From Cynocephalus volans (Eukaryota > Chordata > Mammalia > Dermoptera > Cynocephalidae): a DNA stretch of 64,000 nt. This document shows, in pieces, positions 30,810-64,000 of this stretch. The notes under the pieces were generated by a model, which did not search any database, was not told the origin of the DNA, and saw nothing but the letters and a program-made list of their open reading frames with translations. The stretch lies in NCBI RefSeq assembly GCF_027409185.1, contig NC_084463.1:66201852-66265851 (forward strand), written 5' to 3'. The translations under genes and the position numbers were made by a program. Each line of letters starts with the position of its first letter. The stretch's first letter is position 1.

Positions 30810-33800
30810 TTAAATGTCTGGGCTGGCCATATCCTCCATTCTCTGATAGCCGGCTGAGGCTCTTCCCCAACGCAGAACTCTAGAAAAGCCCTGACCTACA
30901 AGCTTGACTTCCTTGTGGGACTTCATACACAGTTTGAGTGCGCTGTCTACTAGGCTGAATGGAGAGCTGCTGTGTCTCTCTGATTCCTGGGAGGGAGAAG
31001 AATTATATGAATGGGTTGTCTGCACAGTACCAAGTCCTTCCACTGCCTTCATGGGCATGTCTTTCTGTCTCTCTTCCAGTGAGTTGGCTTCTGCAACACC
31101 AGAAGCATGAGGAGGTGGCTCTGAAAGTCCTTTTAGAGAACCTATTTTATTTTCCTCTGGCCTGGCTGCCTTTGCTTTCGTTTTGAGGGACCAGTTTCTC
31201 AAACTGGCTATACCATTTCTCAACCATGTGTTGAGGTGAAGAGTTATAGAACGCATTCGTGAATGCCACCCTACACTATCCTTATTTGTATTGACGAGGT
31301 GGCTGCTGCCCTGCCCTGATGACGGACCAGGCATTCCAGAAATGAAGTTGGAACTGCTAAAGTCAGAAGAAAGCTCTCCCTGTTTTCTTTGAGCCTGAAA
31401 ATTGCAATCTATTGGAGGGGGAGTTTCAGTGGGTGTAAACACGGAATGTTCAGAAATCTGAGAAAAAGGACTGTCCTGACAGCTCGCTGATGAGCCAGAT
31501 GCGGAAGTGCCTGGGGAGGATAAGCTGGAACAGCTAGTCTTTGGGCAAAAGCTTAATCTTGGGGGTAAAACCTTCTCAGAGTTTTGGTTTGTGGCACTAC
31601 TCTTGCCCAACTCAATCCCCATGACCAAACTCTGATTAATAAGCTTTTGACCCTCCATTTGCAAAGACTTATGCTGTTTGAGATAATCCTCCTCTCCCTG
31701 CAAGAGACCAGCTTCACAGCTGGTTTTATGTTGTTTCTTTGAATCAATCCCCCTGAGATAGATCAGTTTGCAGTGCTGGTTATCTATGTTGGGCTCTGAG
31801 CAGTGCCAGTGTGTCCTTGAACTCTTGAGGGTACCTGTTGTGTGTGGCAGGGAGTATCCCGATGTACCTTCATCAAAGGGCTGGTTCCTGGAATGATCTT
31901 GTGAGGACATATGACTATATGATGCCACAGAAAAGGACACTGGCTTGGACTTAGGGAAAAGTTTTTCATGATTTCCTTCAGTACCAGACATGCTTTTGTT
32001 CTTAATGTTTTGATTGGTGGCATTTTTCTTGCTGACATTGGTGCTTGTGACTGAACTCTGTTTAAAACATATCTTGGACTTAGGGAAAAGTTTTTCATGA
32101 TTTCCTTCAGTACCAGACATGCTTTTCTTCTTAATGTTTTGATTGGTGGCATTTTCCTTGCTGACATTAGTGCTTGTGACTGAACTCTGTTTAAAACATA
32201 TCTTGGACTTAGGGAAAAGTTCTTCATGATTTGCTTCAGTACCAGACATGCTTTTCTTCTTAATGTTTTGATTGGTGGCATTTTCCTTGCTGACATTAGT
32301 GCTTGTGACTGAACTCTGTTTAAAACATATCTTGGACTTAGGGAAAAGTTTTTCATGATTTTCTTCAGTACCAGACATGCTTTTCTTCTTAATGTTTTGA
32401 TTGGTGGCATTTCTCTTGCTGACATTAGTGCTTGTGACTGAACTCTGTTTAAAACATATCTTGGACTTAGGGAAAAGTTTTTCATGATTTGCTTCAGTAC
32501 CAGATATGCTTTTCTTCTTAATGTTTTGATTGGTGGCATTTTCCTTGCTGACATTAGTGCTTGTGACTGAACTCTGTTTAAAACATATCTTGGACTTAGG
32601 GAAAAGTTTTTCATGATTTCCTTCAGTACCAGACATGCTTTTCTTCTTAATGTTTTGATTGGTGGCATTTTCCTTGCTGACATTAGTGCTTGTGACTGAA
32701 CTCTGTTTAAAACATATCTTGGACTTAGGGAAAAGTTCTTCATGATTTGCTTCAGTACCAGACATGCTTTTCTTCTTAATGTTTTGATTGGTGGCATTTT
32801 CCTTGCTGACATTAGTGCTTGTGACTGAACTCTGTTTAAAACATATCTTGGACTTAGGGAAAAGTTTTTCATGATTTCCTTCAGTACCAGACATGCTTTT
32901 CTTCTTAATGTTTTGATTGGTGGCATTTTCCTTGCTGACATTAGTGCTTGTGACTGAACTCTGTTTAAAACATATCTTGGACTTAGGGAAAAGTTCTTCA
33001 TGATTTGCTTCAGTACCAGACATGTTTTTCTTCTTAATGTTTTGATTGGTGGCATTTTCCTTGCTGACATTAGTGCTTGTGACTGAACTCTGTTTAAAAC
33101 ATATCTTGGACTTAGGGAAAAGTTTTTCATGATTTCCTTCAGTACCAGACATGCTTTTGTACTTAATGTTTTGATTGGTGGCATTTTCCTTGCTGACATT
33201 AGTGCTTGTGACTGAACTCTGTTTAAAACATATCTTGGACTTAGGGAAAAGTTTTTCATGATTTCCTTCAGTACCAGACATGCTTTTGTACTTAATGTTT
33301 TGATTGGTGGCATTTTCCTTGCTGACATTAGTGCTTGTGACTGAATTCTGTTTAAAACATATCTTGGACTTAGGGAAAAGTTCTTCATGATTTGCTTCAG
33401 TACCAGACATGCTTTTCTTCTTAATGTTTTGATTGGTGGCATTTTTCTTGCTGACATTAGTGCTTGTGACTGAACTCTGTTTAAAACGTGTCTTATCCCC
33501 TTCCTGGAGAGATTGATTCTGCTTCAGATAATCCTCATCTTTTTGAGAGAAAATTGCAACATGGCTGGACTTGCGTAACTTTTTCTGATAAAACTCCTTG
33601 AGAGAGGAAAGCTTAGAATCTAGATAGTTGGTGCAGGGCTTCGAGCAGCGCTGGAGTCGACTCAGGGTTTTTGGAGCATCTGTTGCATCTGAGGACAGGT
33701 AGCTGGGTGAGCACAAGTCAGATGGGGCACTGAAATGCTCCTGCAGTGGAAGAGCCTCTCTGTACATCACTATAGCGGTCATCAGCTTGGATTCAAGAGG

Positions 33801-36800
33801 CTGGTTCCTTTGAATGTCTTCATCTTTAGACTGGTCTAAGTCAAAGTCACTCGGGGTTAAAAAGCCTTCAACCTCAGGCTGGTCAAGGTCTTCCATCTCA
33901 GGCTGCTCGAGGCCATCAGCCTCAAGCTGGTCAGGGCCTTCGACCTGAGGCTGGTCAGGGTCCACAGCCTGCGGCGGGTCAGGGTCCTCGGCCTCAGGCT
34001 GGTCAAGGCCTTCGACCTCAGGCTGGTCAAGGCCTTCCATTTCAGGCTGGTTAAGGATTTCAGCCTCAGGCTGGTCAAGGCCTTTGACCTGAGGCTGGTC
34101 AAGGCCTTCGGCCTCAGGCTGGTCAAGGCTATACACCTCAGGCTGGTCAGGGCCTTCAACCTGAGGCTGGTCAAGGCCGTCCGCCTCAAGCTGGTCAGTG
34201 CCTTCGGCCTCAGGCTGGTCAAGGCCTTGGGCCTGCGGCTGGTCAGGGCCTTCGACCTCAGGCTGGTCAGGGACTTCCATCTCAGCCTGGTCAAGGCCGT
34301 CAGCCTCAGGCTCGTCAAGGCTTTCGGCCTCAGACTGGTCAGGGCCATCCACCTGAGGCTGGTCAGGACCTTCAACCTCAGGCTGGTCAGGGTCTTCGGC
34401 CTGAGGCTGGTCAGGGTCTTTGACCTCAAGCTGGTCAGGGTCTTCTATCTCAGGCTGGTCAAGGCCTTTGGCCTCAGGCTGGTCAGGGCTTTCGGCCTCA
34501 GGCTGGTCAGGGTCTTTGGCCTCAGGCTGGCCAAGGCCTTCCAGCTCAGGCTGGTCAAGGCCTTCCAGCTCAGGCTGGTCAGGGCCTTCGACCTGAGGCT
34601 GGTCAGAGTCTTCGGCCTGAGGCTGGTCAGGGCCTTCGACCTGAGGCTGGTCAGGGCCTTCGGCCAGAGGCTGGTCAGGGTCTTCGACCTCAAGCTGGTC
34701 AGGGTCTTCCATCTCAGGCTGCTCAAGGCCTTCGGCCTCACGCTGGTAAGGGCTTTCGGCCTCAGACTGTTCAGGGCCTTCGGCCTGAGGCTGGTCAGGG
34801 CCTTCAACCTGAGGCTGGTAAGGGCCTTCGGCCTCAGGCTGGTCAGCGCCTTCGGCCTCAGGCTGGTCAGCGCCTTCGGCCTCTGCCTGGTCAGGGTCTT
34901 CGGCCTCTGGCTGGTCAAGGCCTTTGGCATCAGGCTGGTCAAGGTCTCCCATCTCAGGCTGGTCAAGGCCTTCGACCTCAGGCTTGTCAAGGCCTTCCAT
35001 CTCAGGCTGGTCAAGGGTATCCACCTCAGGCTCCTCAAGGCCTTCGACCTCAGGCTGGTCAAGGCCGTCCTCCTCAGGCTGCTCAAGGCCTTTGGCCTGA
35101 CGCTGGTCAGGGTCTTCGGCCTGAGGCTGGTCAAGGTCTTCGACCTCAAGCTGGTCAGGGTCTTCCATCTCAGGCTGCTCAATGCCTTCGGCCTCAGTCT
35201 GGTCAGAGCCTTCAACCTGAGGCTGTTCTGGGCATTCGGCCTGAGGCTGGTCAGGGCCTTCGAACTGAGGCTGTTCAGGGCCTTCGGCCTGAGGCTGGTC
35301 AGAGCCTTTGAACTGAGGCTGGTCAGGGCCTTCGGCCTCAGGGTGGTCAGGGCCTTCGGCCTCAGGTTGGTCAAGGTCTTCCATCTCAGGCTGGTCAAGG
35401 CCTTTGACCTCAGGCTGTTCAAGGCCATCGGCCTCAGGCTGGTCAAGGCCATCCGCCTCAGGCTGGTCACGGCCTTCAACCTGAGGCTGGTCAGGGCCTT
35501 CGGCGTGAGGCTGGTCAGGGTCTTCCATCTCATGCTGGTCAGGGTCTTCCATCCCAGGCTGGTCAAGGTCTTCCATCTCAGGCTGGTCAAGGGCTTTGAC
35601 CTCAGGCTGGTCAAGGTCTTCCATCTCAGGCTGGTCAAGGCCTTCGACCTCAGGCTGGTCAAGGCCTTTCGCCTCAGGCTGGTGAAGGCTTTCGGCCTCA
35701 GGCTGGTAAAAGTCTTCCATCTCAGGCTGGTCAAGGCCTTCGACCTCAGGCTGGTCAAGGCTTTCGGCCTCAGGCTGGTCAAGACCGTTCGCCTGAGGCT
35801 GGTCAGGGCCTTCGGCCTGAGGCTGGTCAGGGTCTTCCATCTCAGGCTGGTCAAGGCCATCAGCCTCAAGCTGGTCAGGGCCTTCAACCTGAGGCCGGTC
35901 AGGGTCCTCGGCCTCAGGCTGGTCAAGGCCTTCGACCTCAGGCTGGTCAAGGCCTTCCATTTCAGGCTGGTCAAGGACTTCAGCCTCAGGCTGGTCAAGG
36001 CCTTTGACCTGAGGCTGGTAAAGGCCTTTGGCCTCAGGCTGGTCAGGGTCTTCCATCGCAGGCTGGTCAAGGCCTTTGGCCTCAGGCTGGTAAAGGTCTT
36101 CCATCTCAGGCTGGTCTAGGCCTTCAACCTCAGGCTGGTCAAGGCCTTCCGCCTCAGGGTGGTCAAGGCCTTCGGCCTCAGGCTGGTCAGGGCCTTCGAC
36201 CTGAGGCTGGTCAGGGTTTTCGACCTCAACCTGGTCAGGGTCTTCGATCTCAGGCTGCTTAAGGCCTTCGGCCTCAGGCTGGTCAAGGCTATCCGCCTCA
36301 GGCTGCTCAAGGCCTTCGGCCTCAGGCTGGTCAAGGCTATCCGCCTCAGGCTGCTCAAGGCCTTCGGCCTCAGGCTGGTAAGGGCTTTCGGCCTCAGGCT
36401 GGTCAGAGCCTTCGACCTGAGGCTGTTCATGGCCTTCAGCCTGAGGCTGGTCAGGGCCTTCGACCTGAGGCTGGTCAGCGCCTTCGGCCTCAGGCAGGTC
36501 AGGGCCTTCAGCCTCAGGCTGGTCAGGGCCTTCGGCCTCTGGCTGGTCAAGGCCTTCCATCTCAGGCTGGTCAAGGCCTTCGGCCTCAGGCTGGTCAAGG
36601 CTATCCGCCTCAGGCTGGTCAAGGCCTTTGACCTCGGGCTGGTCAAGGCCATCCGCCTCAGGCTGGTCAAGGCCTTCGGCCTCAGGCTGGTCAGTGTCTT
36701 CGACCTCAAGCTGGTCAGGGTCTTCAATCTCAGGCTGGTCAAGGCCTTCGGCCTCAGGCTGGTCAGGGCCTTCGACCTGAGGCTGTTCAGGGCCTACGGC

Positions 36801-39295
36801 CTGAGGCTGGTCAGGGCCTTCGAACTGAGGCTGGTCAGGGCCTTCGGCCTCAGGCTGGTCAGGGCCTTTGGCCTCAGGGTGGTCAAGGCATTCTGCCTCA
36901 GGCTGGTCAAGGTCTTCCATCTCAGGCTGGTCAAGGCCTTCGACCTCAGGCTGTTCAAGGCCATCGGCCTCAGGCTGGTCAAGGCCTTCTGCCTCAGGCT
37001 GGTCACGGCCTTCGGCCTGAGGCTGGTCAGGGTCTTCCATCTCACGCTGGTCAGGGCCTTCCATCTCAGGCTGATCAAGGTCTTCCATCTCAGGCTGGTC
37101 AAGGCCTTCACCCTCAGGCTGGTCAAGGCCTTCGACCTCAGGCTGGTCAAGGTCTTCCATCTCAGGCTGGTCAAGGTCTTCCGCCTCAGGCTGGTCACGG
37201 GCTTCGGCCTGAGGCTGGTCAGGGTCTTCCATCTCACGCTGGTGAGGGCCTTCCATCTCAGGCTGGTCAAGGCCTTCCGCCTCAGGCTGGTCAAGGCTTT
37301 CCGCCTCAGGCTGGTGAAGGCCGTTCGCCTGAGGCTGGTCAGGGCCTTCGACCTCAGGCTGGTCAGGGTCTTCCATCTCAGGCTGGTCAAGGCCATCAGC
37401 CTCAAGCTGGTCAGGGCCTTTGACCTGAGGCTGGTCAGGGTCCTCGGCCTCAGGCTGGTCAGGGCCTTCGACCTCAGGCTGGTAAAGGCCTTCCATTTCA
37501 GGCTGGTCAGGGACTTCAGCCTCAGGCTGGTGAAGGCCTTCGGACTCAGGCTGGTCAGGGTCTTCCATCTCAGGCTGGTCAAGGCCTTCGGCCTCAGGCT
37601 GGTAAAGGTCTTCCATCTCAGGCTGGTCAAGGCCTTCAACTTCAGGCTGGTCAAGGCCTTCAACCTCAGGCTGGTCAAGGTCTTCTGCCTCATGCTGGTC
37701 AAGGCTTTTGGCCTCAGCCTGGTCAGGGCCTTCGACCTGAGGCTGCTCAAGTCCGTCCGCCGCAGGCTGGTCAGTGCCTTCGGCCTGAGGCTGGTCAGGG
37801 TCTTCGGCCTGCGGCTGTTCAGGGTCTTCGACCTCAGGCTGGTCAGGGTCTTCCATCTCAGGCTGGTCAAGGCCTTCAACCTCAGGCTCATCAAGGCCAT
37901 TGACCTGAGACTGGTCAAGGCCTTCAGCCTCAGGATGGTCAAGGCCATCGGCCTCAGGCTGGTCAGGGCCTTCAGCCTCAGGCTGGTAAGGGCTTTCGGC
38001 CTCAGGCTGGTCAGGGCATTCAACCTGAGGCTGGTCAGGGCCTTCGGCCTCAGGCTGGTCAGGGCCTTCAACCTGAGGCTGGTCAGGGTCTTCGGCCTGA
38101 GGCTGGTCTGGGTCTTCGACCTCAAGCTGGTCTGGGTCTTCCATCTCAGGCTGGTCAAGGCCTTCGGCCTCAGGCTGGTAAAGGTCTTCCATCTCAGGCT
38201 GGTCAAGGCCTTCAACTTCAGGCTGCTCAAGGCCTTCGACCTCAGGCTGGTCAAGGCCATTGGCCTCACGCTGGTCACGGTCTTCCATCTGAGGCTGGTC
38301 AAGGCCTTCGGCCTGAGGCTGGTCAGGGTCTTCGACCCCAAGCTGGTCAGGGTCTTCCATCTCAGGCTGGTAAGGGCTTTCGGCCTCAGGCTGGTCAGAG
38401 CCTTCGACCTGAGGCTGTTCAGGGCCTTCGGCCTGAGGCTGGTCAAGGCCATCCGCCTCAGGCTGGTCACGGCCTTCGGCCTGAGGCTGGTCAGGGCCTG
38501 CGACCTGAGGCTGGTCAGGGCCCTCGGCCTGAGGCTGGTCAGGGTCTTCGACCTCAGGCTGGTCAGGGTCTTCCATCTCAGGCTGGTCAAGGCCATCAGC
38601 CTCAGGCTGGTCAGGGTCTTCGACCTCAGGCTGGTCAGGGTCTTCCATCTCAGGCTGGTCAAGGCCTTCGGCCTCAGGCAGGTCAAGGCCTTCGGCCTCA
38701 GGCAGGTCAAGGCCTTCGGCCTCAGGCTGGTCAAGGCCTTCCGTCTCAGGCTGTTCAAGGCCTTCGGTCTCAGGCTGCTCAAGGCCTTCCGCCTCAGGCT
38801 GGTCAGGGCCGTCCGCCTCAGGCTGGTCAGGGCCGTCCGCCTCAGGCTGGTAAGGGCCTTCGACCTGATGCTGGTCAGGGCCTTTGGACTGAGGCTGGTC
38901 AGGGTCTTCGACCTCAGGCTCGTCAGGGTCTTTGGCCTGAGGCTGGTCAGGGTCTTCCATCTCAGGCTGGTCAAGCCCTTCGGCCTCAGGCTGGTCAAGG
39001 CCTTCAACCTGTGGCTGGTCAAGGCCTTCCGCCCCAGGCTGGTCAAGGCCTTCAACCTCAGGCTGGTCAAGGTCTTCCATCTCAGGCTGGTCAAGGTCTT
39101 CAGCCTCAAGCTGGTCAAGGCCTTCAGCCTTAGGCTGGTCAAGACTATGGTCACTGAGGGTTAAGACAGAGTCCATCCTTCTGCTACTCTGGTCTAGTTT
39201 ATTTGCCAAGTCACTACATGGAGCATCCACATCCCCATTTACTTCATTTTCCAAGCTGTCATGGGAAGAGTCACTTGGTTGGAAGCAAGAGATAG
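30810..39295 (-). CDS. ARHGAP20: ARHGAP20 last coding exon, hugely enlarged by two coding repeat arrays
   Basis: The acceptor is a T-run plus gacag|CTATCTCTTGC. The one base pending from the previous exon completes GCT (Ala), and the exon then runs open for 2827 codons to TAA at 30810-30812. In order it encodes: a lead (ISCFQPSDSSHDSLENE.. to LTLSDHS); 220 copies of an 8-residue acidic unit; LTPSDFDLDQSKDEDIQ; a CSxP..YLDSKL..FYQKKL..DEDYLKQ block; 12 copies of a 43-residue unit; a second CSEPN..KLIYLRG..EEDYLKQ block; and a Ser-rich tail with WLRNGIASLRNWSLK. The unique parts match human ARHGAP20 as I remember it, where the whole protein is about 1190 residues. Here this exon alone encodes about 2828. 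The frame upstream of 39295 (MFKAAWAIF..) is intron, not a start. A pseudogene is unlikely because every upstream exon is also intact. Confidence 0.88.
31560..31815 (-). repeat. ARHGAP20: C-terminal ARHGAP20 repeat block, copy B
   Basis: Encodes HWHCSEPNIDNQHCKLIYLRG, then SKKQHKTSC, EEDYLKQHKSLQ, INQSLVMGIELGKSSATNQN. It parallels copy A (33489-33660) followed by one 43-residue unit. These paired blocks probably correspond to the annexin-like repeats described for this protein. Confidence 0.65.
31941..33488 (-). repeat. ARHGAP20: 12 x 129-bp coding tandem array (43-residue unit) in ARHGAP20
   Basis: It spans exactly 1548 bp = 12 x 129. Each unit starts (R/C)FKQSSVTSTNVSK(E/K)NA and ends NH(E)(E/K)LFPKSK(I/P). 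Units are nearly identical, differing mainly as the ANHEE and GNHEK subtypes, which partly alternate. The unit resembles INQSLVMGIELGKSSATNQN in copy B, so it grew from one half of an older duplication. High identity implies recent spread or homogenisation. The encoded segment is basic, Ser/Thr/Asn-rich and probably disordered. Confidence 0.97.
33489..33660 (-). repeat. ARHGAP20: C-terminal ARHGAP20 repeat block, copy A
   Basis: Encodes LQRCSKPCTNYLDSKLSSLK, then EFYQKKLRKSS and DEDYLKQNQSLQ, directly before the first 43-residue unit. It is homologous to copy B at 31560-31815. Confidence 0.65.
33864..39143 (-). repeat. ARHGAP20: 220 x 24-bp coding minisatellite (LDQPEAEG units) in ARHGAP20
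   Basis: It spans exactly 5280 bp = 220 x 24 bp, running without a stop or net frameshift. Each unit reads (L/P)DQP(E/Q)(A/V/M)(E)(G/D). The core D-Q-P is the best-kept part, while the second half mixes EAEG, EVEG, EMED, QAEG, QVEG and EADG. The flanks LTLSDHS-LDQP and EG-FLTPSDFDLDQS resemble each other, so the array seems to have grown inside an older short duplication. The product is about 1760 residues, strongly acidic (about three acidic residues per unit) and proline-rich, so an extended disordered spacer is likely. Longer blocks of units recur, showing segmental duplication within the array. Confidence 0.98.
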
Positions 39296-40421
39296 CTGTC
39301 AAAAAAAAAACCAGAGCATGGTTAACATATTTACTTACCATAAATATAGCCCAAGCTGCCTTAAACACAAACTATGGTGCTTAGTTAAATTCTCTTTTCA
39401 CATAGAGTGTTCAAATCTCTACTCTCAGGAAAGAAAGATTCTGTCACAATCTTCTCAATTGTTAGTGCAGAAGAAAAATAAACTGTTGGGGTATACTGTA
39501 CTAAACTTATCTCAGTTCCTGACAAAACGTTTCTTAAGGTTTTCTCAAAACAGTGAAAATGTTATAAGACCATGAAAAGGTTAAAAAAAAAAACCCAAAC
39601 CAAAACAACAGCATAAGGGAATTAATACTAGGTATACCCAGATTCCAAATAAGACTGCCTTCAACATGGATTGTTGGTGTTTATACATGATTAACTGTAG
39701 TCTTGGGGAAACCATTTACTAACCCTATTAGTTCCTCTTTTACAAAGTTCTTTAATATCCATTACCTTAGTTAACCTTTACAATAATCATTAAGTTAGAT
39801 TTTATTGTATTCCACATTTTACAGATGAAGATACTGATGTTCAGTGGCATAGAATAATTGGTCAAGGATGACATAACTGGCAGTAGAGGAATTCTGGAAG
39901 GTTGTATGTCTTTGAATTCAGCACTTCCCCCACAAAATGATGCTAGTTTTCAAACTGTTTCATAGCACACTAGAATCCTGAGGTGTCTCGGGGACCAGTA
40001 AGAGGAAGGAGAAAAAGGAAAACAAGAACAAAAAACAGGTCTGCCTCTACTGCCTCTGGGCCTTCTACCCTAGTTTTAACAACAGCAATTCTATTATATA
40101 TAGTAGGATTCTTCATAAAGTTTTACTAAAAAAAAAAAAAAAAAAAGCTTCAAACTATAATGCCACAGCACGCTGCCATTAAACATTTCTTGAAGGCTGG
40201 GACCTCATCTTACACATTTCTTAACCCCACCACACTGCTAATATACCCTGACCTATATAGCAGGACTTCTAAGGAAGGAACAGAGGCCCTGGGCCCCAGT
40301 GACCCAGGTCAGAGGCCTCTTTCACCTCAGCTGCTGTGGGCTTCTGGGCAACCACTGTCCCAGCATCTTCACAGACAAAATCTCTCTTTCTCACAAAAAC
40401 CAACCCAATTATTCACAATAC
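39296..40421 (-). other. ARHGAP20: ARHGAP20 intron
   Basis: A normal gt..ag intron. It holds a MIR-like relic around 39690-39900 and a poly(A) run at 40128-40146. Confidence 0.7.
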
Positions 40422-40536
40422 CTGAGGCATTCTCTCTAGTGTCACATCTCACTGAAGTCTCTCCTAAGAGGGAAGTAATTTCTTCACCAAATATCGTGCA
40501 GCAATTTTCAATCAGAAACTGTACAAGCAGGGGAAC
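40422..40536 (-). CDS. ARHGAP20: ARHGAP20 exon: end of RhoGAP domain
   Basis: Acceptor ttttttacag|gtt, donor gcctcag|gtattg, 115 bp (38 codons plus one base). It encodes VPLLVQFLIENCCTIFGEEI then TSLLGETSVRCDTRENAS, the last helix of the RhoGAP fold and the start of the C-terminal tail. The remaining base pairs with CT of the last exon to give Ala. Confidence 0.87.
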
Positions 40537-41706
40537 CTGTAAAAAAGGGAGAATGAACTGCTACTTTTCATATAACGTGTTTATAAATCACATTTTATGT
40601 GAATCTTGATTTTAACAAAAAATACTAAAGTATCCTGAGAAATTTATATGCTTTAAAAGTATACAAAATTTTCCCCTAAAAAATACTTTCAAGAGAAGTT
40701 TGGACATAGAACTTAATTTTAATCAGTGGCCTAAAATTATTTGTGTACTTGGCTTAATGCTAACATTTTATACCAATAGCTCTGTTTGTAAAATTGGGAT
40801 AATTTCAAGTATTCTCTATAGGGTGTTTGGGATGAAGAAATATATTTTGTTATTAAAATTTGTAAAGTATTATTACAAGATAAAGACTTATGCAAAGTAC
40901 TTCTTGTGTAAAGGACAGCTTGTCCTAAGCTTGGGAAGAGGGCTCCTCTGTGGGTATATTGTGAAGGACAGAGACAGCTAGAAAGAACATTTGTGTTTTT
41001 CCTGACTAGTGTCTACCTATGCACTTGTCTGACTAGCTTATCCACTGTTGCCTTCCATAAGCTTCCGAACTGAAAGTGCTTGTGGGGGTAAGAGTTTACT
41101 AGGGGGCTTTGTGCATCCATTGAGATGTACTGGAACCTTTCTGTAGTTTCTTACCCCAGTAGCTGAGGCCAAGGGGCAGGAGGAATGTTGGGAGCAAAGG
41201 AAACTAATATCCCCAAACCCTTTATTAACTGCCAGGCACTACAGGAGTGTGATTTCAAGTAACTACAGTATTATCACCACCTCCATTTTTCAGATGAGGA
41301 CATAGTGGCTCAGTATAACTGACTTTGCCTAAGACTGTACATCTGGCAAATGGGGGGCTGAGAATTAAACCTTGGCTTGTCTAACTCCAAAGTCCTTGGT
41401 TTTTTTTTTTAATTTAATAATCATATGAACTGCTTTATTATCACTTTATGGTTTAAGTCAGTCATAGAGTTTAGCCTCCTTAAAGGGAAAAGAGAAGAAA
41501 TCCAAGTGCAATCTCTTTTCTGCTTAACAATCACCTTCCTATAGCCTATTAGGATAGGATAAAACACTTCACAATCAGTAGACTCAGCTTATAAGGAGGT
41601 GTACTTAAGTTAATTAAGAAACTGTCTTTCAGAATTAATGCTCTGAATTTTGGTTTCAAATTGGGGACTCAGTCCCCCAGGGCATAAAAATGAGAAACTT
41701 CTTTAC
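40537..41706 (-). other. ARHGAP20: ARHGAP20 intron with a MIR-like relic
   Basis: A MIR-type stretch lies at about 41200-41400 (tttttcagatgagg..ggctgagaattaaacc). Nothing else is recognised. Confidence 0.6.
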
Positions 41707-41896
41707 CTTTTTTGTAAATTCACTTTCTACTTCTGGCCTGGAGGAAAGAGGAGGCCAAAGTATGCTTGGAGCGATACACACAGCTAAATTATAAGCAGTC
41801 ATCTGGTTACACGAGGACTGTTGTTCGATGTTGTGTAATACCCCAAAAAGATACCTTAGGAGAACAACATTTGCTCTCGGAAGCTGGTCTAATAGC
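41707..41896 (-). CDS. ARHGAP20: ARHGAP20 exon: RhoGAP core
   Basis: Acceptor tctttag|gct, donor aaaaag|gtaaag, 190 bp. It encodes LLDQLPRANVVLLRYLFGVL, HNIEQQSSCNQMTAYNLAVC, IAPSILWPP and SEFTKK. NLAVCIAPSI is the conserved RhoGAP signature, whose Asn (about residue 272 of the window-coded part) helps bind the Rho GTPase. No lesion is seen. Confidence 0.92.
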
Positions 41897-44800
41897 CTAA
41901 AGACAGAAAAATGTGCTGTTTAAACATTTCATTAAAAAACTTGTAAAGATGGGCAACCCTAACTTTGCATAAGGAACTGTGCAAGTCAAGGGGGTGAATC
42001 AGGAACAGAGTTCAGATATGCAGGAATTTCCGTTAACGTGGTACCATACAAAGTGAGGACTGCCTATACAGAAAGAGAAAATTTTAAAAAGCACTGGGGA
42101 TTTATTTATTTTTTTTGTACACTGCCTTCACAACCCAATGAAAATGTAAAAGAATGCAGAAAAATGTCCCATAAAAAAGTGCTGCCTGAAATATTTCCCT
42201 GAAACCAGTACAATGTGTTTTAGCTGAGGCAAATCCTATAACATTTCAGAATATTCTCAACCAAAACCCACAAAGTTTTCTGATAAACTTTAACAATGAT
42301 TAAATTTAAAGTGCTTCTTTATTTCCAAGTAGCAACACAGAAATGCTGTCTCTTGGTGAGAACCCAAACCTTAGCTATTAAGACTTTCAGGTCTATTCTG
42401 AAAGCTTATGCTCTGCTACACCAGCTTCCAAGGCCAATTTTGTCCCAAATCTCTGTTTCATTGGTATCACTTTCACATATATGTCAAGCTTACAATAGTA
42501 CATTTTCTACTGTTTTCATTTTGTCATTCATAAGGGATTTTATATATTTTTTTCATTTTTATTGAATCAAAATTGATTATACATATTTTGGGGGTTCAAC
42601 ATAGAGATATGTTGACCAAGCAATATTACTAGCCTAAGTATTGTTACAAATCATAATTATTCTTTACACCCTTTGTCCAATCTCTCCCCATACTCCCTGT
42701 AATTACCCTAGATTTCTTCTCTCCTTCTTAAAGAATAATGGTTACTCTGTTGATTTGTTGCCTAGATGATCTGTCCAATGCTGAGAGGTGTGATCAGGTC
42801 CCCCAATATTATCATAGAGCAGATGCTTCTCTGTCACTCTGAAATGGGCTTTGTGGAGAGAGACGTCCTCCTCTTTTCTTTATCTCTGCTGGTGACTCTC
42901 CTTGTGTCAGTGCATTCCAGGGGCTGGTGGACCATTTGCATGGTGGTTGTGGCATCTAGCTGCTTTCATGGCAGCCATGGTTATTGTGACGGCTGTGATG
43001 GGCCACCCACATGGAGGTGATGTTTTTGGCATGCTTCTTGGTGCTGCTGGTGTGCCTGGTTGTGAGGAGTGTCTGGTCCCTGGCTCCATAGCTTGGGTCC
43101 CCAGGTGGGCCCCAAGGAACTGGAGCGGTGCCTGGTTGTGGGAGGGGGCTCCGGTCCCTGGCTTCATGCTTCAGGTCAGCGGGTGGGCCCCGAGGCACTG
43201 ATGCGGTATGTCTGGTTGTGGTTGGGGGTTCTGGTCCCCTTCTCCATGCCCTGGGTCCCCAGGCAGGCCCTGAGGTGCTGGCACAGTGTGCCTGGTTGTG
43301 GGAGGGGGGTCCATTCCCCACTCCATGCCTCATGTCCCCTGGCAGACACCAAGGCACTGGTGGTATGCCTGGGCTGGAACTAATTTTTTGTCCTTTTCAT
43401 CCCACTTCCTATGGGAATCAGTACTTGAGCTGTGTGGTTGAGTTAAATTGCTGCTTTGTTGCTGTTTCCCTAGGGAAGCCTTTTCTTGCAGCTCAGGGTT
43501 TAATGGTTGACCTTATAGGTACTTCCGCCTCTCCAGAGACCTGGTGCACCTGGGTGGTGTAGAAACTATGATCTAGGCCTGAGTTCTTCCATCAAACTGC
43601 ACCCCATACAATTCTGCATTCCGGACCAGTCTCCTCTGAGTGGTCCTGTGCTGACTGGGGGTCAGATCGGCTGTCCTTGCTGTGTCCCAGTGTTCTCCTG
43701 GTGGGCCTGTCTCTCACACTGCCCATGCTCCAAACAGTTCCCATGGGACGGGGCCTGCACTGGTCCCTTGCGATGACTCATCGGCCTCTGAATGGCTCCC
43801 CTTTTTCAGCTGTTCTGGCTCCTCCTGCGTGGCTCCACGGGAACCCAATTAGTGGTCTTGCTCTCCTGGGGGCCACCAAGGCCCTCTTCTTCCTCCCTGC
43901 TGCCTCCAAGTAACTCCATCTGAAGGACACAGCTGCGGCTTCTACCGGCTCCTGCTTCATGCACTCAGCAGTTCCAGCCTTAAAGTGGCTGCAGCATGAA
44001 ATGCTCAGAGCAGTTTTTTCTTTCTGTCATCATGGTTTCTCCCACCTTCATGAACTCCATAGGTCTCTCCTTCTCTTCCCCTGAGCTCCAGCAGCCCCAG
44101 CTTGGCTGATGTTACATTTTTACAGTTGTAAATTTGTTGATTTGTGGGAGAAAGAGATGCTGGGGACCGTCTATTCTGCCATCTTGACCAGAACTTGATA
44201 CAGGATTTTTAAATGATCATTCACCAAAAATGTTTTTTACTACCATTTGGAAAACAGATAAGCTGATATTCATGACTACTGCTTTTTTCAATAAGAATCT
44301 GCAACCTGGGGGGAATAAGGTAATCTGCCTCCTGTTGCACAAACAGCAGAGAGGTCTTTCTTCAGTACAATGGACTGACAATGAGTATATTTTGTTAGAT
44401 AAGTTATGAAGAGCTTTGAAACAGACCAAAAGATTACTGGGTGTATTCAATGGCAAATAAGTCATCTAGCATATGCTTCTGGGTTATCTGTTTCTATGGG
44501 GGCTCTGAGCCTTTGAGCTATTTTACTACTCCACATGTTATAGATAACTGATAGCAGTGTACCTAATACTTGTCTACAGACTTGAAAAATTCTGTCTGAT
44601 GGAGAGACAACTGATTGATCTGCACTCATGTTTAAAAGTTGCTCAAGAAAAAACTGTACTAAACAAGCACACACAAAGAAATTATATTGGGATTCTCGGG
44701 TTTTCTCCTAGTATCTTTTACAGCACAGATTATACTGCATTGTAATTCACAATTTATCTACTTTGCTCTATCAGACTGCAGACTGTGAGTTCCTTGAAGG

Positions 44801-45162
44801 GAGAAAATAGGTCATTTTCTCTGTATCACTTCGGTTGCTGAAGACAATAAGGAGTCATCTGGTTAGTTAGATATTTACTAAAATTAAGACCATAAACTAT
44901 AGATTGGGCCTACATATTAGGTAGTAAACGAATGCGTTTCATTTCCTACCAGATTCAGATATACAGAAGGTATACAATGTTCAAGTATTCCATGTTAATA
45001 AGATGAGGGAAAGAAACAATAACAATGACAGAAGCCAGCATAAATCTATTTTCAAACTGGTCCCTGGGACCATGACTTTGATAATTGTCCTTATTTTAAT
45101 AGACAAGCTTATAAAAGCTTTGTAGAAGTATTTGTGAGACATGACCAAATTAGAATAATTAC
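41897..45162 (-). other. ARHGAP20: ARHGAP20 intron containing an L1
   Basis: A 3.3-kb intron. Its main content is the minus-strand L1 at 42545-44195. Several plus-strand frames at 42766-43562 come from the GC-rich L1 5' region and are not genes. Confidence 0.6.
42545..44195 (-). mobile_element. Internally deleted L1: 3' end fused to 5' region
   Basis: The left side is an antisense L1 3' end (aaaattgattatacatattt). A short endonuclease-like piece follows (about 42765-42900), and then a 1.2-kb GC-rich 5' region. It ends in ctattctgccatcttgacc at about 44171-44189, the reverse complement of an L1 start. Most of ORF1 and ORF2 is missing, so it cannot move by itself. Confidence 0.75.
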
Positions 45163-45272
45163 CTTTGAATTGTATTTATTTTCTCTTCATTGTTTCCTTG
45201 ATCCATTACACAGACCCAGTGATCGTAGAGATTTGATGAAAAAATGCTTCCAGGAATATTTCGCAGAAATTC
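45163..45272 (-). CDS. ARHGAP20: ARHGAP20 exon: RhoGAP domain
   Basis: Acceptor gatgtaag|gaa, donor caaag|gtaatt, 110 bp. It encodes EFLRNIPGSIFSSNLYDHWV then CVMDQGNNEEKINTIQ. The two bases left complete an Arg with the next exon. The DFLRxIP-type motif is well kept (E replaces D at the first position). Confidence 0.9.
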
Positions 45273-48459: not shown

Positions 48460-48621
48460 CTTTAAAACAGATGCTATCACAAAAATACATTCACAGTCTA
48501 GGTGTACTTCGACTCCAGAATTCAGTTTCTCTTTTAGCTCTCTGCAGGATTTCAGACTGGCTGATAGCCTGAAGATTCCTTTTGTTAGGGGTCCTTTTTG
48601 ATTAAGAAAGTAAAGCATATC
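48460..48621 (-). CDS. ARHGAP20: ARHGAP20 exon: RhoGAP start with arginine finger
   Basis: Acceptor ccccatag|gat, donor ttaaag|gtagga, 162 bp = 54 codons, phase 0. It encodes DMLYFLNQKGPLTKGIFRLS then SCRELKEKLNSGVEVHLDCE and FVIASVLK. GIFR carries the arginine finger (about residue 163 of the window-coded part) that RhoGAPs insert into the GTPase active site. The protein should therefore still speed GTP hydrolysis on a Rho-family GTPase. Confidence 0.93.
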
Positions 48622-49812
48622 CTATGGGGAAGCAAAGGAAACAAAACAAAAAAGCACTTCACACATACATGCAAGGGAACATGTACTGCAGCTACTAGAG
48701 GACAGATTAAAAGCACTGAAGGATTGGAGCAGGATGGACAGCTAGAAGGATTAAAGTCAATCTTTTAGAGAGTAGAATGGTGGTTACCAGGGGCTGGGGA
48801 TGATGGCAGGGGAGTTAGGGAGATGTTGGTCAAAGGAAACAAAATTTCAGTTAGATAAGAGAAATAAATTTAGGTGACCTATTGTATAACATGGTGATGA
48901 CAGTTAATAACAATGTACTAAATTCTTGAAAATTGCTAGGAGAGTAAATTTTAAGTGTTTACTCACTTTGCTTTCTTTCTATTTGTATGTCCTCTGCTTG
49001 CAGTGTAGGAAGAGAATGGGTTTTAGAGACAAGCAATCCATGGCATTTAAAATCTAGTTATGCCACTTATTTACTGTGTAACCCTTGGTAAAGTTCGGAG
49101 GCTTTTTTTTTTTAATTAGTAAACAAAGGAATGATGACAATAATAACTACCCTCTGTATTTGCTGTGACAGATAAGCTGTGAAGGGGCTAGACTAGTGTC
49201 TGGCATTTATAGATGCACAATACAGCATAAAATGCCACACATCTAGTATAGTGCTTGCAGGATACTGGATACTCAATAAAAATGTTGGTTAACAGTGATT
49301 ATTTAATATATCAACACAAACTCAGTGGCTTTCAACTGACCCATTCTACACACAAAAGATAACTAAATGCCAGAGAATGTATCTTTATTCTTAAATACTT
49401 GAAATACAAATAAAGCAGTTTTAAAAACTTTAAAAAATATGATTAAGTAGTCTCTGTTGGTGAAGTGGTTAAAAAAAAAAACCAGACTTTCAGAACAATA
49501 TGGAGTTGAATTGAAGAAGGATTTGTGAGAGATAGAATATGGATTGTCTATCTACAGAGCAAATTCCAATTTACCTGAGCAGGCTTATATGGCTCTTTCT
49601 TGAAACCAGTAGTCTAGATTATCTCTTATGTCTTCCTTATGATTCTGCAATAGCTAAGTCAGATTTTAATTCTTTTAAATAATGATAATAGAGATTCTTA
49701 GCTAAAGCCAGGGATGTCTATAATCTCTCCATCTGGGGACAGGTTTACTTTCCAAAGTTCCCCATTCCTAAAATTCCTTTCCCATTACTTTACAGGCCAA
49801 AATGAGACTTAC
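48622..49812 (-). other. ARHGAP20: ARHGAP20 intron with L1 and MIR relics
   Basis: An L1 3' end on the plus strand is seen at about 48765-48965 (gaatggtggttaccaggggc). A MIR-like stretch lies at about 49010-49210. Confidence 0.65.
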
Positions 49813-49991
49813 TAAGACAGGTTTGGGCAGATTATCATTCTCACAAATATTTGGCAGAGAAACTCCAAACAGCTGTCCTGGCACAGGAGATGTTGGAGAT
49901 ATGGGCAAGTTGTGCTGGTGAGTGCTAGAGCCTCGCCAAAAGGCCCAGTTTAAGATAGATCTTCTCCTTTTAAATGTCTTCTGATTTGAAT
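49813..49991 (-). CDS. ARHGAP20: ARHGAP20 exon: linker between RA and RhoGAP domains
   Basis: Acceptor tgccttag|att, donor gtctta|gtaagt, 179 bp. It encodes SNQKTFKRRRSILNWAFWRG, then PISPTSPVPGQLFGVSLPN and ICENDNLPKPVL, running into the first RhoGAP helix. The basic, Ser/Pro-rich linker matches my memory of ARHGAP20. The two bases at its start complete Asp with the previous exon. Confidence 0.9.
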
Positions 49992-50405
49992 CTAAGGCAG
50001 AATTGAGAGTATTAGAAAAACTAGTTTAGTTTACTTAACTTTATTTCTATAATTTCCATTTCACTATATGTTCGTTACTATGGCTCAGAAAAGAAATGCT
50101 TATAGATGTCCTTTGTTATTGACAATTCAACCCATGACATTTCTCTATAATATTATGTAAATTAAGGAAAAATCAACTAAGGAAGAATCAAATGTTTGGT
50201 TCTTCTTCTATCTATTTCTGAGACACCACTGGTATGTTTACTCGAGTTTTGGCACTAAATTTCAAAGGTGAAAGAATGGCTTCCTATTGAAATATTACAA
50301 CTTAAAGCAAAAAGTGTTTTTCATACTAACATATACATTTTCCCATTTTAAAGATGAGACTGGGCATCCAGAAATTTGAAGACTGAATTATACTACAATT
50401 AAATC

Positions 50406-50883: not shown

Positions 50884-50996
50884 TGATTTGGATGTTTTTT
50901 AGGCAGTTGGCAGGTATGGGGATCCGAACCCTTGACCTTAGTGTTTATAACACCATGTTCTAATGAACTGAGCCAACTGGCCAACCTGATTTGGAT
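50884..50996 (-). mobile_element. Monomeric tRNA-Ile-derived SINE (CYN-like)
   Basis: Body 50894-50986, reverse orientation, containing ccgaacccttgaccttagtg and tgaactgagccaactgg. The direct repeat tgatttggat flanks it at 50884-50893 and 50987-50996. Confidence 0.8.
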
Positions 50997-60344: not shown

Positions 60345-60533
60345 CACTCCGTTGCTGGGCCATAGCCAGATGGCTGCGCTTCAGGATGAACTGGCACCGC
60401 ATCTCTTGGGGCAGCTGTTCCATAAGGAAGGGGTCCTGGAAGTTGAGAGGTGTGGTGGAGTCCTTTGATCCCTGTGTCAGGAGTGCAGTGTCTCGAAGGT
60501 GGCTCATTTTAATTCCATAAGGATATTCATGCC
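60345..60533 (-). CDS. ARHGAP20: ARHGAP20 exon: RA domain C-terminal part
   Basis: Acceptor ctgtgtag|ggc, donor gagtg|gtgagt, 189 bp. With the preceding G it encodes GHEYPYGIKMSHLRDTALL, then PLNFQDPFLMEQLPQEMRCQ and FILKRSHLAMAQQRS. This is the end of the Ras-associating domain, which in ARHGAP20 is reported to bind the GTPase Rap1 and regulate the GAP activity. No lesion is seen. Confidence 0.9.
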
Positions 60534-63247
60534 CTACACAGAGAAAAATCTAAATGTAGACTTCAGACAGGCTGATACTGTGAGCATGTGTGCTACAAAC
60601 TGGAATGTACTGCAATTTACCCCTGGTACTTTTGGTATAAAGAATCCTTTTGTTGACTGAATGATCACCATGTTCCTCTTAGTTGGAGACCACTGCATAA
60701 TGTAGGTGGTCCTACCAAAATAGTTTTAAGGATGAGAAGAAAGGAAGGAAGAAAAAAAGTCTTTTAAAATTATCTAGTGTGGAGTGAATGTACAGGTCAG
60801 TTTGTGAGTTGCATAATGTTGGTTTCTCCTATTTGCACATAAGAATATTTAGAGGTATTCCAGTTTCTCCTTTGACACTAACTAGATCTATAAATCTTCA
60901 GCAAATCCCAGTCCTCTCAGCCTCAAATGCATGATTTAAAATACCCTACTCCTATCGCACAACTATTGTAAAGATCAAATAAGTAAACACTGGTGCTTAA
61001 TATTATTTAAATAATAGGGACAATGAACTATGTATGTCAAGAATTGCTATTGTTACTATTATTTAACACAAGATGTCTGACTGAAAAACATTTAATTAGT
61101 TTTTATTAGTTATATAAGTAGAGCTTCTCAAGAGCATTGGGACTGGTTTGATTTATGCTTCCCTCCCACTGCTGCACTCTGAGGCTGGTGTTCATAGGCA
61201 ATAATCAGAAGGAAGACTGCAGGAGATTAGAAACACAGAAAGAGATGCAAAAAGGATTTACAAACTAGAAAAGCTAAACCCTGCACATCTCATCGCAACA
61301 TAATTTTTGCTCTTTAATATTCTAAGTAATTGCATCCTGTTAGTGTAAAGCTCAAACACTACTGGTTTGCAGATTTTTTAAGCACAGGAGTAAGTTCCCT
61401 TCTATTGCTGACTTATCACTAAATGTAACTCAGTAAACGCTTACTGTTCCTTTCTACCTGGCATAGGCACATAATGTCAATATTCGATTAATATCAAGCA
61501 ATACAGCAACTTCTAGGAATTAAGCAAAAAAAAAAAAAAGAAGAAGAAGCCTTCTATAACAGCAATAAAACAATCAATTTATCCAAATAGCCAGCAGCTC
61601 ATCTACAATTGAGGTTTGCAAGGCACATTAAAATATACAATTATTTTTATTTTTATTTTTTGGTATATCGCCAATACAGGGATTGGAACCCTTGACCTTG
61701 GTGTTATAACACTGCACTCTAACCCACTGAGCTAACCAGCCAGCCCAAAATATACAAATAAGAACTGTTATTCAATCGTGGGACAATCACATGTCATGTT
61801 CCATGGTTTTTTAGTAAGAGCTGGTAATGAAGCTTGGAGATGTTTTAAGCTTGAAAGTTACCATTCACCTAGTTTTAATTAAATTAATGTATTTTATTAA
61901 AGCATATTTTAAGTATTTTTTAAAGATTTGCCGACTTTAATTGTTCTCCATTGACTTTACAAAAATGGCAACATTAAGTGAGAGCTAAAAATGAGAAAGA
62001 AAGAAACTACAATCACAATAATACATTGAACTTTGAGAAGTAGAAAACAGAACTGTGATTACAAGAGGTGGGAAGGGGTAGGGGTATTAGGGAGAAATTG
62101 ATTAATGGACATTAAGAATTATTACATTTTGAAATGATAAATACACTAATTCTCCTGATTGGATCACCATATATTGTCCACAAATACTGATAGTCCACTC
62201 TGTACCCCACAAATATGTATAATCAACTATTTCAATAAAAATAAAATTTTCAGATAGAGGGGGAAAAAGAAACCCTGAAATAAGTCAATTTTGTCCTCAG
62301 TTTATGCATGATCACTTTCTACATTCTAAGCATACAGATTTTGTAGAAAAGTTTGGTTTTAGATTACTCAGATCAATGGAAACACTGATTACACAGTAGT
62401 GACCTCACAGATAAATGAAAGGACTGCACAAGATGATGCATGTGAAATGCTTTCCACAATGTCTAGCAGGTAGTAAGCATTTTTCAATTGTTAACAGAAA
62501 TCAACGTCATCAACATCATTCTGTTCATCATCTCAAAATCTGCTACAGATATTGTCCTTCATTTTTATTGCTCTGTTTCTGTTAACGACTCTGAATAAAA
62601 TTACTGATCAAAAAATATTTTTTAGCGAAATGATTTAAATAAGGTGAGGTGTAAACTATATACCAATGCTCCTCAAATCAAATGCTGGGTAACTGAGCTA
62701 CAGAAATAGCAAAGTAAGTTAGTGAAGTGACAGTAGATTAGCCAGTGAAGATTTATATGTTCAAATGGATTAATCCATTTTATTTGATGCCTAGAAAAGT
62801 TCCTGGCACAGGGCAGGTATTTCATACTCACTGGTGGTTTAAGATGCATGACTGGATTATAGACTGGTCTTCCAGAGAGGCAAAATAGTAGATAGGAAAG
62901 GGAACAGAAAATCCCAAGAACTGAATATAAAAAGAAGTGTATGAAGAAAAGGAAATACCAATACATATTGCTGTGTTACAGAAAAAAAGTAAAGGTTTGG
63001 CAAGCTAGCTCTGTTTATAAAGTGAAAAACAGAAGAAAATTCACATTTTTCTTCCCAACTATAAAATTAGCTACTTGAGCAAAGAGATTTTTTCTAACAC
63101 AGAGAAATGTTTAGTAGATATTTATTCTTCATATGAGATTTAACATTTCATAGTATTTAAATTTAGGACCATATGACTAATTCTCTCAGACACTTAGTAT
63201 TCACTGAATTTTAATTATAGTTCTCTTAGATTTTCACAGAAACTTAC
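60534..63247 (-). other. ARHGAP20: ARHGAP20 intron
   Basis: Contains a CYN-like SINE at 61630-61757, an L1 3' end at about 62040-62250 (caccatatattgtccac, then ttcaataaaaataaaa) and a MIR-like relic near 62390-62500. Otherwise nothing is recognised. Confidence 0.6.
61630..61757 (-). mobile_element. Monomeric tRNA-Ile-derived SINE (CYN-like) with TSD
   Basis: Body 61641-61746. Its reverse complement starts gggctggctggttagctcag and continues in a tRNA-Ile-like way through gttataacaccaaggtc and gggttccaatccc. The direct repeat aaaatatacaa flanks it (61630-61640 and 61747-61757). This is the clearest view of the tRNA-Ile ancestry. Confidence 0.87.
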
Positions 63248-63314
63248 CAATGAGTGGGTATGGTGCTGCTTCTTTGCCAGAATTGACCCATAACTGGTAA
63301 TCTCTCTCAGAGCC
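63248..63314 (-). CDS. ARHGAP20: ARHGAP20 exon: RA domain (first exon in the window)
   Basis: Acceptor tctccaag|ggc, donor cattg|gtaagt, 67 bp. It encodes GSERDYQLWVNSGKEAAPYP then LI, and its last base completes Gly with the next exon. It belongs to the RA domain. Exons for the PH domain and N-terminus are on the minus strand and must lie to the right of this window. Confidence 0.85.
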
Positions 63315-64000
63315 CTTGGAGATAAAAGAATTAAAAGTCATAATAAATCTTCAACATTTGGTACTTCGATGAGGACTTTTTTGGGGGGCATTTTTATGTT
63401 TCGTCAAAGGAAAAACCTGGGGACAATGTAAATGCTATATAGGTACACGGGAGTGATTATGATTTTTTTTAGAAAACCCCATCTCTCTCCCCCCAATCCC
63501 CAGTGATGGCTAGGGATCCACAAACTTCAATGGAATCAGGCCCTCAATATAAAGGGAGCCCACGGAATGTGAAATCTTGACTAAATCTTTCTACAAAGGA
63601 AGAACAAACTTTCTGGTTCTAAAAGGCTAATCTCTTCTTTAGAGTCCTGACTTCTGCTATGTCTCTGGACTTCTCAGAGAATATCCGACTTAACCTTCAA
63701 CATGTCCCAGGCAAAGACAACCTTTTTATCCAGAAAGCCACAAACACTTCTGTATGTATGATTAAGAAGTAAAATATCAAAGGCTGATTTTAGTTCAGCT
63801 GCTTCTGAGCAGGAGAAGAAGAGGCTTTGAACAGATAGGCAACTGGCATAGTCTACACTGGTTTTAGTTTGGGCAAGTCCAGTCCTGGGCACAGAAAGAA
63901 TGAGAATTCAATCTAGAGAATAGGCCCAGTCATGGAAAACATAAAACAATAAAATTGTTCACTAGTAGAATTATAACCCCGGAAGGGTTATATTCCTCTA
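63315..64000 (-). other. ARHGAP20: ARHGAP20 intron up to the window edge
   Basis: No further ARHGAP20 exon is recognised. An open minus-strand frame at 63674-63892 does not match this protein. Confidence 0.5.

Follow-up and report, generated by a model that had tools for sequence, protein, structure and literature searches.

Protein-coding minisatellites, in which a tandem unit whose length is a multiple of three lies inside a coding exon, are familiar from variable-number repeat genes such as those for mucins and involucrin, whose products are secreted or cornified-envelope proteins. The accessible part of a report on filaggrin (FLG) describes tandem repeats held in frame in one exon, their number varying between and within species, in a protein that is repetitive throughout primates (PMC5225520). 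Giant disordered proteins can also be encoded by amplified gene copies, as in Laidx, which the available portion of its description gives as X-linked with a Y partner (PMC7263670). A survey of tandem repeats in human proteins finds unit numbers to be mostly ancient and reports none among them with evidence for strong recent duplication and deletion (PMC3995336).

A stretch of 64,000 nucleotides from the Philippine colugo, Cynocephalus volans (the window; C4:66201852-66265851), holds a locus that recalls each of these systems and departs from each. It shares with mucins and involucrin a multiple-of-three minisatellite in a coding exon, but it sits in the gene for a Rho GTPase-activating protein, in an exon where two unrelated units have expanded. 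The array resembles that of FLG in its single-exon, in-frame organization and varying unit number, whereas here a signalling protein with one octamer has gained hundreds, in numbers that vary by paralogue. As with Laidx, amplified copies encode a giant disordered protein, in the colugo a predicted one; unlike Laidx, the family stems from a conserved gene and sits on a contig without the look of an X. In other mammals, ARHGAP20 has the same RhoGAP domain, the octamer ahead of LLTLSDFDL and one 43-aa segment, but it is about 1190 aa long with one octamer, against a predicted 3370 aa or so for the window copy. The array is probably a true coding minisatellite, hosted by an ARHGAP20 family that was amplified recently and is apparently autosomal. 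An earlier sequence-only reading of this DNA knew of no description of such an expansion, and none was found among the matches listed in the open literature, subscription papers lying mostly outside it; ARHGAP20 papers there made no mention of colugo or flying lemur, and "tandem repeat" co-occurs with the gene in an autism cell study.

Two arrays in one exon

The octamer array (Table 1) consists of 220 units of 24 bp, 5280 bp in all, with no stop and no indel inside one open frame, and TRF returns period 24, 220.0 copies, 0% indels and 81% matches. A tandem unit that is a multiple of three thus lies in an open frame, as a coding minisatellite requires, and the uninterrupted in-frame array of exactly 5280 bp that had been read from the letters is borne out. 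The units are diverse: 157 of the 220 are distinct as DNA, and they encode 127 distinct octamers around the consensus LDQPEAEG, with a mean pairwise unit identity of 0.81. Lag analysis found no dominant lag that would indicate a higher-order repeat within the array, and the longest exactly repeated block spans three units here and five in another long copy, A1. Two unit patterns, allowing at most two mismatches each, gave 443 + 376 and 458 + 545 matches genome-wide, with 0 + 0 for the reversed control in either case; those among the matches listed (first places) are on C4. The product of the array alone would weigh 192.5 kDa with a pI of 4.05, and contains 614 acidic against 33 basic residues, together with 285 prolines and 17 aromatics. 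This acidic, proline-rich composition leads to the expectation that the octamer array is disordered. Pfam matches of the arrays (Fibrinogen_BP, Myotoxins) were taken to reflect composition and set aside.

The sequence-only reading had found one coding array in the exon. The octamer array stands, but it is not alone: 12 units of 129 bp, in the same frame, lie further along the exon and had been missed (TRF places their limits at 31944-33494). The octamer array falls within a stop-to-stop frame of 2853 aa at 30810-39371 on the minus strand. A splice acceptor AG is read at 39296-39297, which sets the start of the last exon at 39295, and a T-tract with this AG adjoins the exon upstream (39296-39309); the count of 2830 codons for the exon runs from 39302, three codons ahead of it, to the stop.

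Table 1. Features of the window (positions within the 64,000-nucleotide stretch) and loci of the gene family on contig C4
Feature	Position	Strand	Basis
Last exon of the ARHGAP20-family gene, open down to the stop	30810..39295	-	frame; exon start by reading
C-terminal tail, query for finding copies	30810..31946	-	last-exon read
Second coding array, 12 x 129 bp (43 aa, CFKQSSVTSTNVSKENATNQNIKKKSMSGTEGNHEKLFPKSKI type)	31947..33494	-	TRF, 97% matches
Unique segment of 123 codons between both arrays, FLTPSDFDL...	33495..33863	-	last-exon read
Coding array of LDQPEAEG-type octamers, 1760 aa, net charge -581	33864..39143	-	TRF + unit count
Unique segment, acceptor to octamer array, ~50 codons, ISCFQPSDSS...LTLSDHS	39144..39295	-	last-exon read
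Exon carrying the end of the GAP region (approximate ends)	40401..40560	-	exon reading
RhoGAP exon LLDQLPRANVVLL... (approximate ends)	41709..41902	-	exon reading
RhoGAP exon EFLRNIPGSIFSS...INTIQR (approximate ends)	45162..45272	-	exon reading
RhoGAP exon with GIFR (DMLYFLNQKGPLTKGIFR...; approximate ends)	48460..48621	-	exon reading
Exon NQKTFKRRRSILNWAFW..., ahead of the GAP domain (approximate ends)	49798..49992	-	exon reading
Exon HEYPYGIKMSHLRD... (approximate ends, by reading)	60346..60549	-	exon reading
Exon with GSERDYQLWVNSGKE (approximate ends); earlier exons past the window end	63246..63341	-	exon reading
Long loci (n=9)	C4: 63.06, 63.54, 64.66, 65.71, 66.23 (= window), 66.81, 84.22, 84.74, 86.07 Mb		
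Short loci (n=7), frames 547-923 aa	C4: 3.23, 3.83, 4.99, 5.14, 6.91, 7.38, 67.55 Mb		

Identity of the host gene

The upstream exons within the window are open to their splice sites and encode a RhoGAP domain (Pfam PF00620, E 5.3e-41). Its best PDB match is ARHGAP20 itself (3msx_B, E 2.6e-98, 170 residues) with GIFR aligned, the arginine of which is presumably the catalytic finger. The window gene thus has the domain with its arginine and is closest to ARHGAP20, and the match to 3msx_B upholds the earlier assignment of the exon as a RhoGAP-family last exon of ARHGAP20 type. The GAP domain of the window gene evolves fast: its median identity to 95 orthologue rows is 86.5%, against 94.9% for tree shrew to 94 rows. 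Two other elements were seen in the window: a GC-rich intronic tandem repeat of the same gene at 43052-43360, with about four copies of a 78-80 bp unit, and a tRNA-Tyr-like match at 50906-50983, perhaps a tRNA-derived SINE.

A graded family of copies

The reference, VGP assembly GCA_027409185.1, is one used in a long-read assembly paper, according to the accessible portions of that work (PMC11928578, PMC12090573). It comprises 2.81 Gb in 130 contigs, and C4 has 169,057,324 bases. When this genome was searched with the 377-aa tail, 35 rows came back: 17 fall on 16 C4 loci (that at 7.38 Mb, split over two rows, is counted once), three on a single C2 locus, and the other 15 are weak and lie inside the C4 loci. 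There are therefore 16 ARHGAP20-type copies on C4, and in each of them the main tail match contains no stop. Nine are long loci, with frames of 2551-3275 aa spread over 23 Mb.

Last exons, read in 10 of the 16 copies, are open as far as they could be tested, and octamers were counted in 13. Six long copies carry 262, 177, 220, 226, 224 and 246 octamers and, in the same order, 14, 13, 12, 10, 13 and 13 43-mers by count of the FKQ motif. The four group B copies carry 18, 38, 20 and 18 octamers and one 43-mer each; two of them, B3 and B4, are partly masked (N), and their frames were tested only in part. The loci at 7.38 Mb (partly masked), 3.23 Mb and 67.55 Mb have two octamers each, and the long loci at 64.66, 65.71 and 86.07 Mb are known by their frame lengths, with unit matches at 64.65 and 86.06 Mb. 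Introns and upstream GAP exons are present in nine of the ten copies read (the stretch taken for A2 ends too early), which marks the copies as products of DNA duplication and not of retroposition. About 440 bases past the stop, group B copies also have a second partial 43-mer and tail start at 81-86% identity.

The gene had been taken for a lone ARHGAP20 with a single octamer multiplied about 220-fold. It is instead one of 16 copies on C4, nine of them with very long frames, and the 13 counted range from two to 262 octamers. The single octamer holds as the starting point, as shown below; the growth from it appears as a graded series of 2, 18-38 and 177-262 units in one genome.

Could false duplication or misjoined repeats have produced such a series? 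Assemblies tend to fail at long near-identical copies, and the CloseRead paper, in its accessible part, labels this VGP assembly haplotype-unresolved. However, the units are 19% diverged on average, so that arrays can be ordered in assembly, and of the nine long loci over 23 Mb of C4, the six that were read differ in flanks and array length. An assembly artefact is thus very improbable.

One octamer as the ancestral state

The C2 locus (C2:138113000-138117999) is an old, intronless, broken ARHGAP20 retrocopy that runs from N-terminus to tail and holds one octamer (IDQSEVEG) and one 43-mer region. This dead retrocopy is a fossil of the one-octamer state. Among 121 database relatives, octamers could be parsed in 112: there is one in 110 of these, including P0001 and P0003, which are colugo models with an array left out, and two in P0002 and P0004, both colugo. 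Of the nine unparsed relatives, three show one octamer in the surrounding sequence. The comparison with orthologues that had been proposed as a check thus gives the same answer as the retrocopy: the ancestral ARHGAP20 state is one octamer. The 43-mer region is 161-168 residues long in all 61 of the 121 relatives in which it was parsed (the pattern missed 60), so these have one 43-aa unit.

Similar arrays in other mammals were not seen among the matches listed. The searches covered relatives of 406-1291 aa (best 120 of 246), 1556-4950 aa (one match, a bat) and 650-2067 aa (best 120 of 338); of the relatives added by the last, ten were put through a motif count and none has more than one octamer-like motif, and no row named Galeopterus occurs among the best 120 of 246, 1 of 1 and best 120 of 338. 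An array could be concealed in an annotated relative just as it is in the colugo models. Frames outside annotation, for instance P0005 (408 contigs), should escape such hiding, and they have one octamer. The one match in the longest class, P0121 (northern bat, 2972 aa), was considered as a long-array case and rejected: it is several gene copies strung together, with one octamer in each of the three that contain the octamer region.

Like P0121, the models P0122 and P0130 (sheep, goat) string together several ARHGAP20-like GAP units, and the octamer motif was not found in the sheep and goat models. Camelids have both ARHGAP20 and ARHGAP20-like proteins, of which P0095, P0100 and P0108 share a long stem (0.16), perhaps through independent amplification; P0111 and P0116 are also camelid ARHGAP20-type proteins, by name only.

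Chromosomal setting

Dispersed near-identical copies suggested an X-linked ampliconic family, a possibility that marker searches count against, since they point to C30 and not C4 as the X. Moesin-like exons (94-97%) lie at C30:75.14-75.15 Mb and a match to Xist exon 1 at C30:82.78 Mb (E 1.7e-4, below cut-off), and C30 is read as the X because of these two. Intron-bearing moesin relatives occur on C4 at 5.41 Mb (79-83%) and on C10 (73-95%), read here as radixin and ezrin, respectively. The family therefore does not look sex-linked, and C4 is apparently an autosome. On C4, the moesin relative at 5.41 Mb has copies of the family close by, at 4.99 and 5.14 Mb, and in human RDX presumably neighbours ARHGAP20. 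The radixin-like neighbour thus points to about 5 Mb on C4 as the probable site of the ancestral ARHGAP20 locus, the long copies probably being the dispersed ones. Of the 121 relatives, 34 were selected for a tree, in which the four from colugo make up a single clade (100/100) on a long stem (0.18), next to primates (85/83); this clade, together with the C4 neighbourhood near the moesin relative, identifies the same gene by descent.

How the arrays change

In all ten copies read, the octamer array is a whole number of units. Scanned in steps of 24, the arrays are in phase and unbroken, eight as a whole and two as far as the sequence reached, so length varies by whole units between paralogues. 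When the six long arrays are aligned with units treated as indivisible, aligned units in the 15 pairs differ by 0.4-3.6% at the nucleotide level, with gaps of 1-82 units. Noncoding flanks of the long copies are only 0.2-0.95% apart (A2 left out upstream), and the window's upstream flank is 3.5-3.8% from three group B copies; downstream, long and group B copies can be aligned up to about 140 bases past the stop. In a tree of copies with a crude outgroup, the two-octamer copies at 3.23 and 67.55 Mb cluster with the 38-octamer copy at 4.99 Mb (100/100), so short arrays change quickly too.

As single-stranded DNA, 72-nt windows of the array fold more stably than shuffles (73 windows each): -12.0 against -8.7 kcal/mol for the coding strand of the window array and -13.6 against -9.5 kcal/mol for the other strand. 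Group B arrays show a like excess. Such folding is in line with instability, without being proof of it.

These features would fit a mechanism in which the GC-rich unit expands and contracts through unequal exchange and gene conversion, both inside a copy and from one copy to another. Since 24 and 129 are multiples of three, gain or loss of whole units keeps the frame, so the arrays can run; they would be free to do so while selection purges stops and frameshifts.

Is the array part of the protein?

The open frames argue for translation of the array. Across 1632 bases of unique last exon, intron rates predict that window and group B should differ by 2.5 stops and 6.2 frame-breaking indels, but none is seen (P 1.7e-4), and the same test of the window (A3) against A4 gives P 1.3e-5; the expectation is rough, because indels accumulate more readily in introns than in exons. 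No amino-acid constraint was detectable inside the octamer array by codon positions or substitution ratio: variability does not rise at third positions compared with the other two (mean entropies 0.49, 0.53 and 0.56), and the nonsynonymous-to-synonymous ratio is about 0.9-2.3 times the neutral share (15 pairs, small counts).

The long-array copies may instead be decaying duplicates, open merely through youth. Values of dN/dS near or above 1 would agree with this: long copies against group B give 1.04-1.49 over the unique last exon, and by segment the window against group B gives 0.27-0.59 before the array, 1.06-1.52 between the arrays and 1.22-1.90 in the tail. The divergence of less than 1% in noncoding sequence among the long copies read and the fast GAP domain point the same way. 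Yet the tail match is open in all 16 copies, not one of the roughly 8.7 expected disabling changes separates window and group B, and the window retains GIFR and its exon frames, all of which make decay unlikely.

A second alternative is that the array sits in exon DNA but is spliced from the mRNA as an intron, which would leave a protein of ordinary length. Two NCBI models, P0001 and P0003, do omit the array, joining LTLSDH directly to a last octamer. P0001 is copy B3 by reading, although masking lets B1 score higher; P0003 is of the long-copy type and differs from each of the six long copies read. By reading, the join of the long-copy type fits GT..AG, but those of group B would require a GC donor. 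The donor implied for the long-copy type, ATA/GTCTTG, is very poor: it scores -4.7 bits, whereas the one real donor scored, which closes the 41.7-kb exon, reaches +8.1 and a perfect site would reach 12.75. Introns, moreover, need no stop-free frame, yet these frames are open. Removal as an intron is accordingly judged quite unlikely, and the NCBI introns over the array are read as implausible, the annotation apparently forcing the usual protein length.

If the array is a true coding minisatellite, the predicted protein would grow from about 1190 to about 3370 aa while keeping its RhoGAP front, with a disordered, proline-spaced and very acidic spacer ahead of the C-terminal tail. This spacer would be mostly tolerated, with length mattering over exact letters, if anything does. 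Selection on array length itself can be envisaged, for instance on a giant acidic tether, driven by conflict among the copies, that tunes the place of action of the GAP domain in the germ line. Two different repeats have expanded in the same exon of the same copies, and these long copies have multiplied; ARHGAP20-like named proteins also occur in camelids, a kangaroo rat and a bat. Mouse Arhgap20, in the available part of one study, is a mouse-specific source of testis piRNA (PMC4654475). The lack of visible amino-acid constraint in the array and the dissimilarity of C4 to an X both tell against selected length, which is doubtful at best.

Implications

A true coding minisatellite in an amplified ARHGAP20 family would thus account for the arrays. 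A bolder proposal, tentative and itself unlikely as a whole, is that nine genes of a single colugo autosome encode RhoGAPs of about 3000-3800 aa on acidic tethers of differing length, through a hypermutable array that changes by block exchange and is kept in frame by selection. The family also suggests that annotation can conceal giant repeat proteins through false introns. Related loci of one genome carry from 1 to 262 units, a fossil preserves the state from which they started, and the flanks supply a neutral clock; the colugo series is a natural experiment in how a coding repeat starts, explodes and retains its frame.
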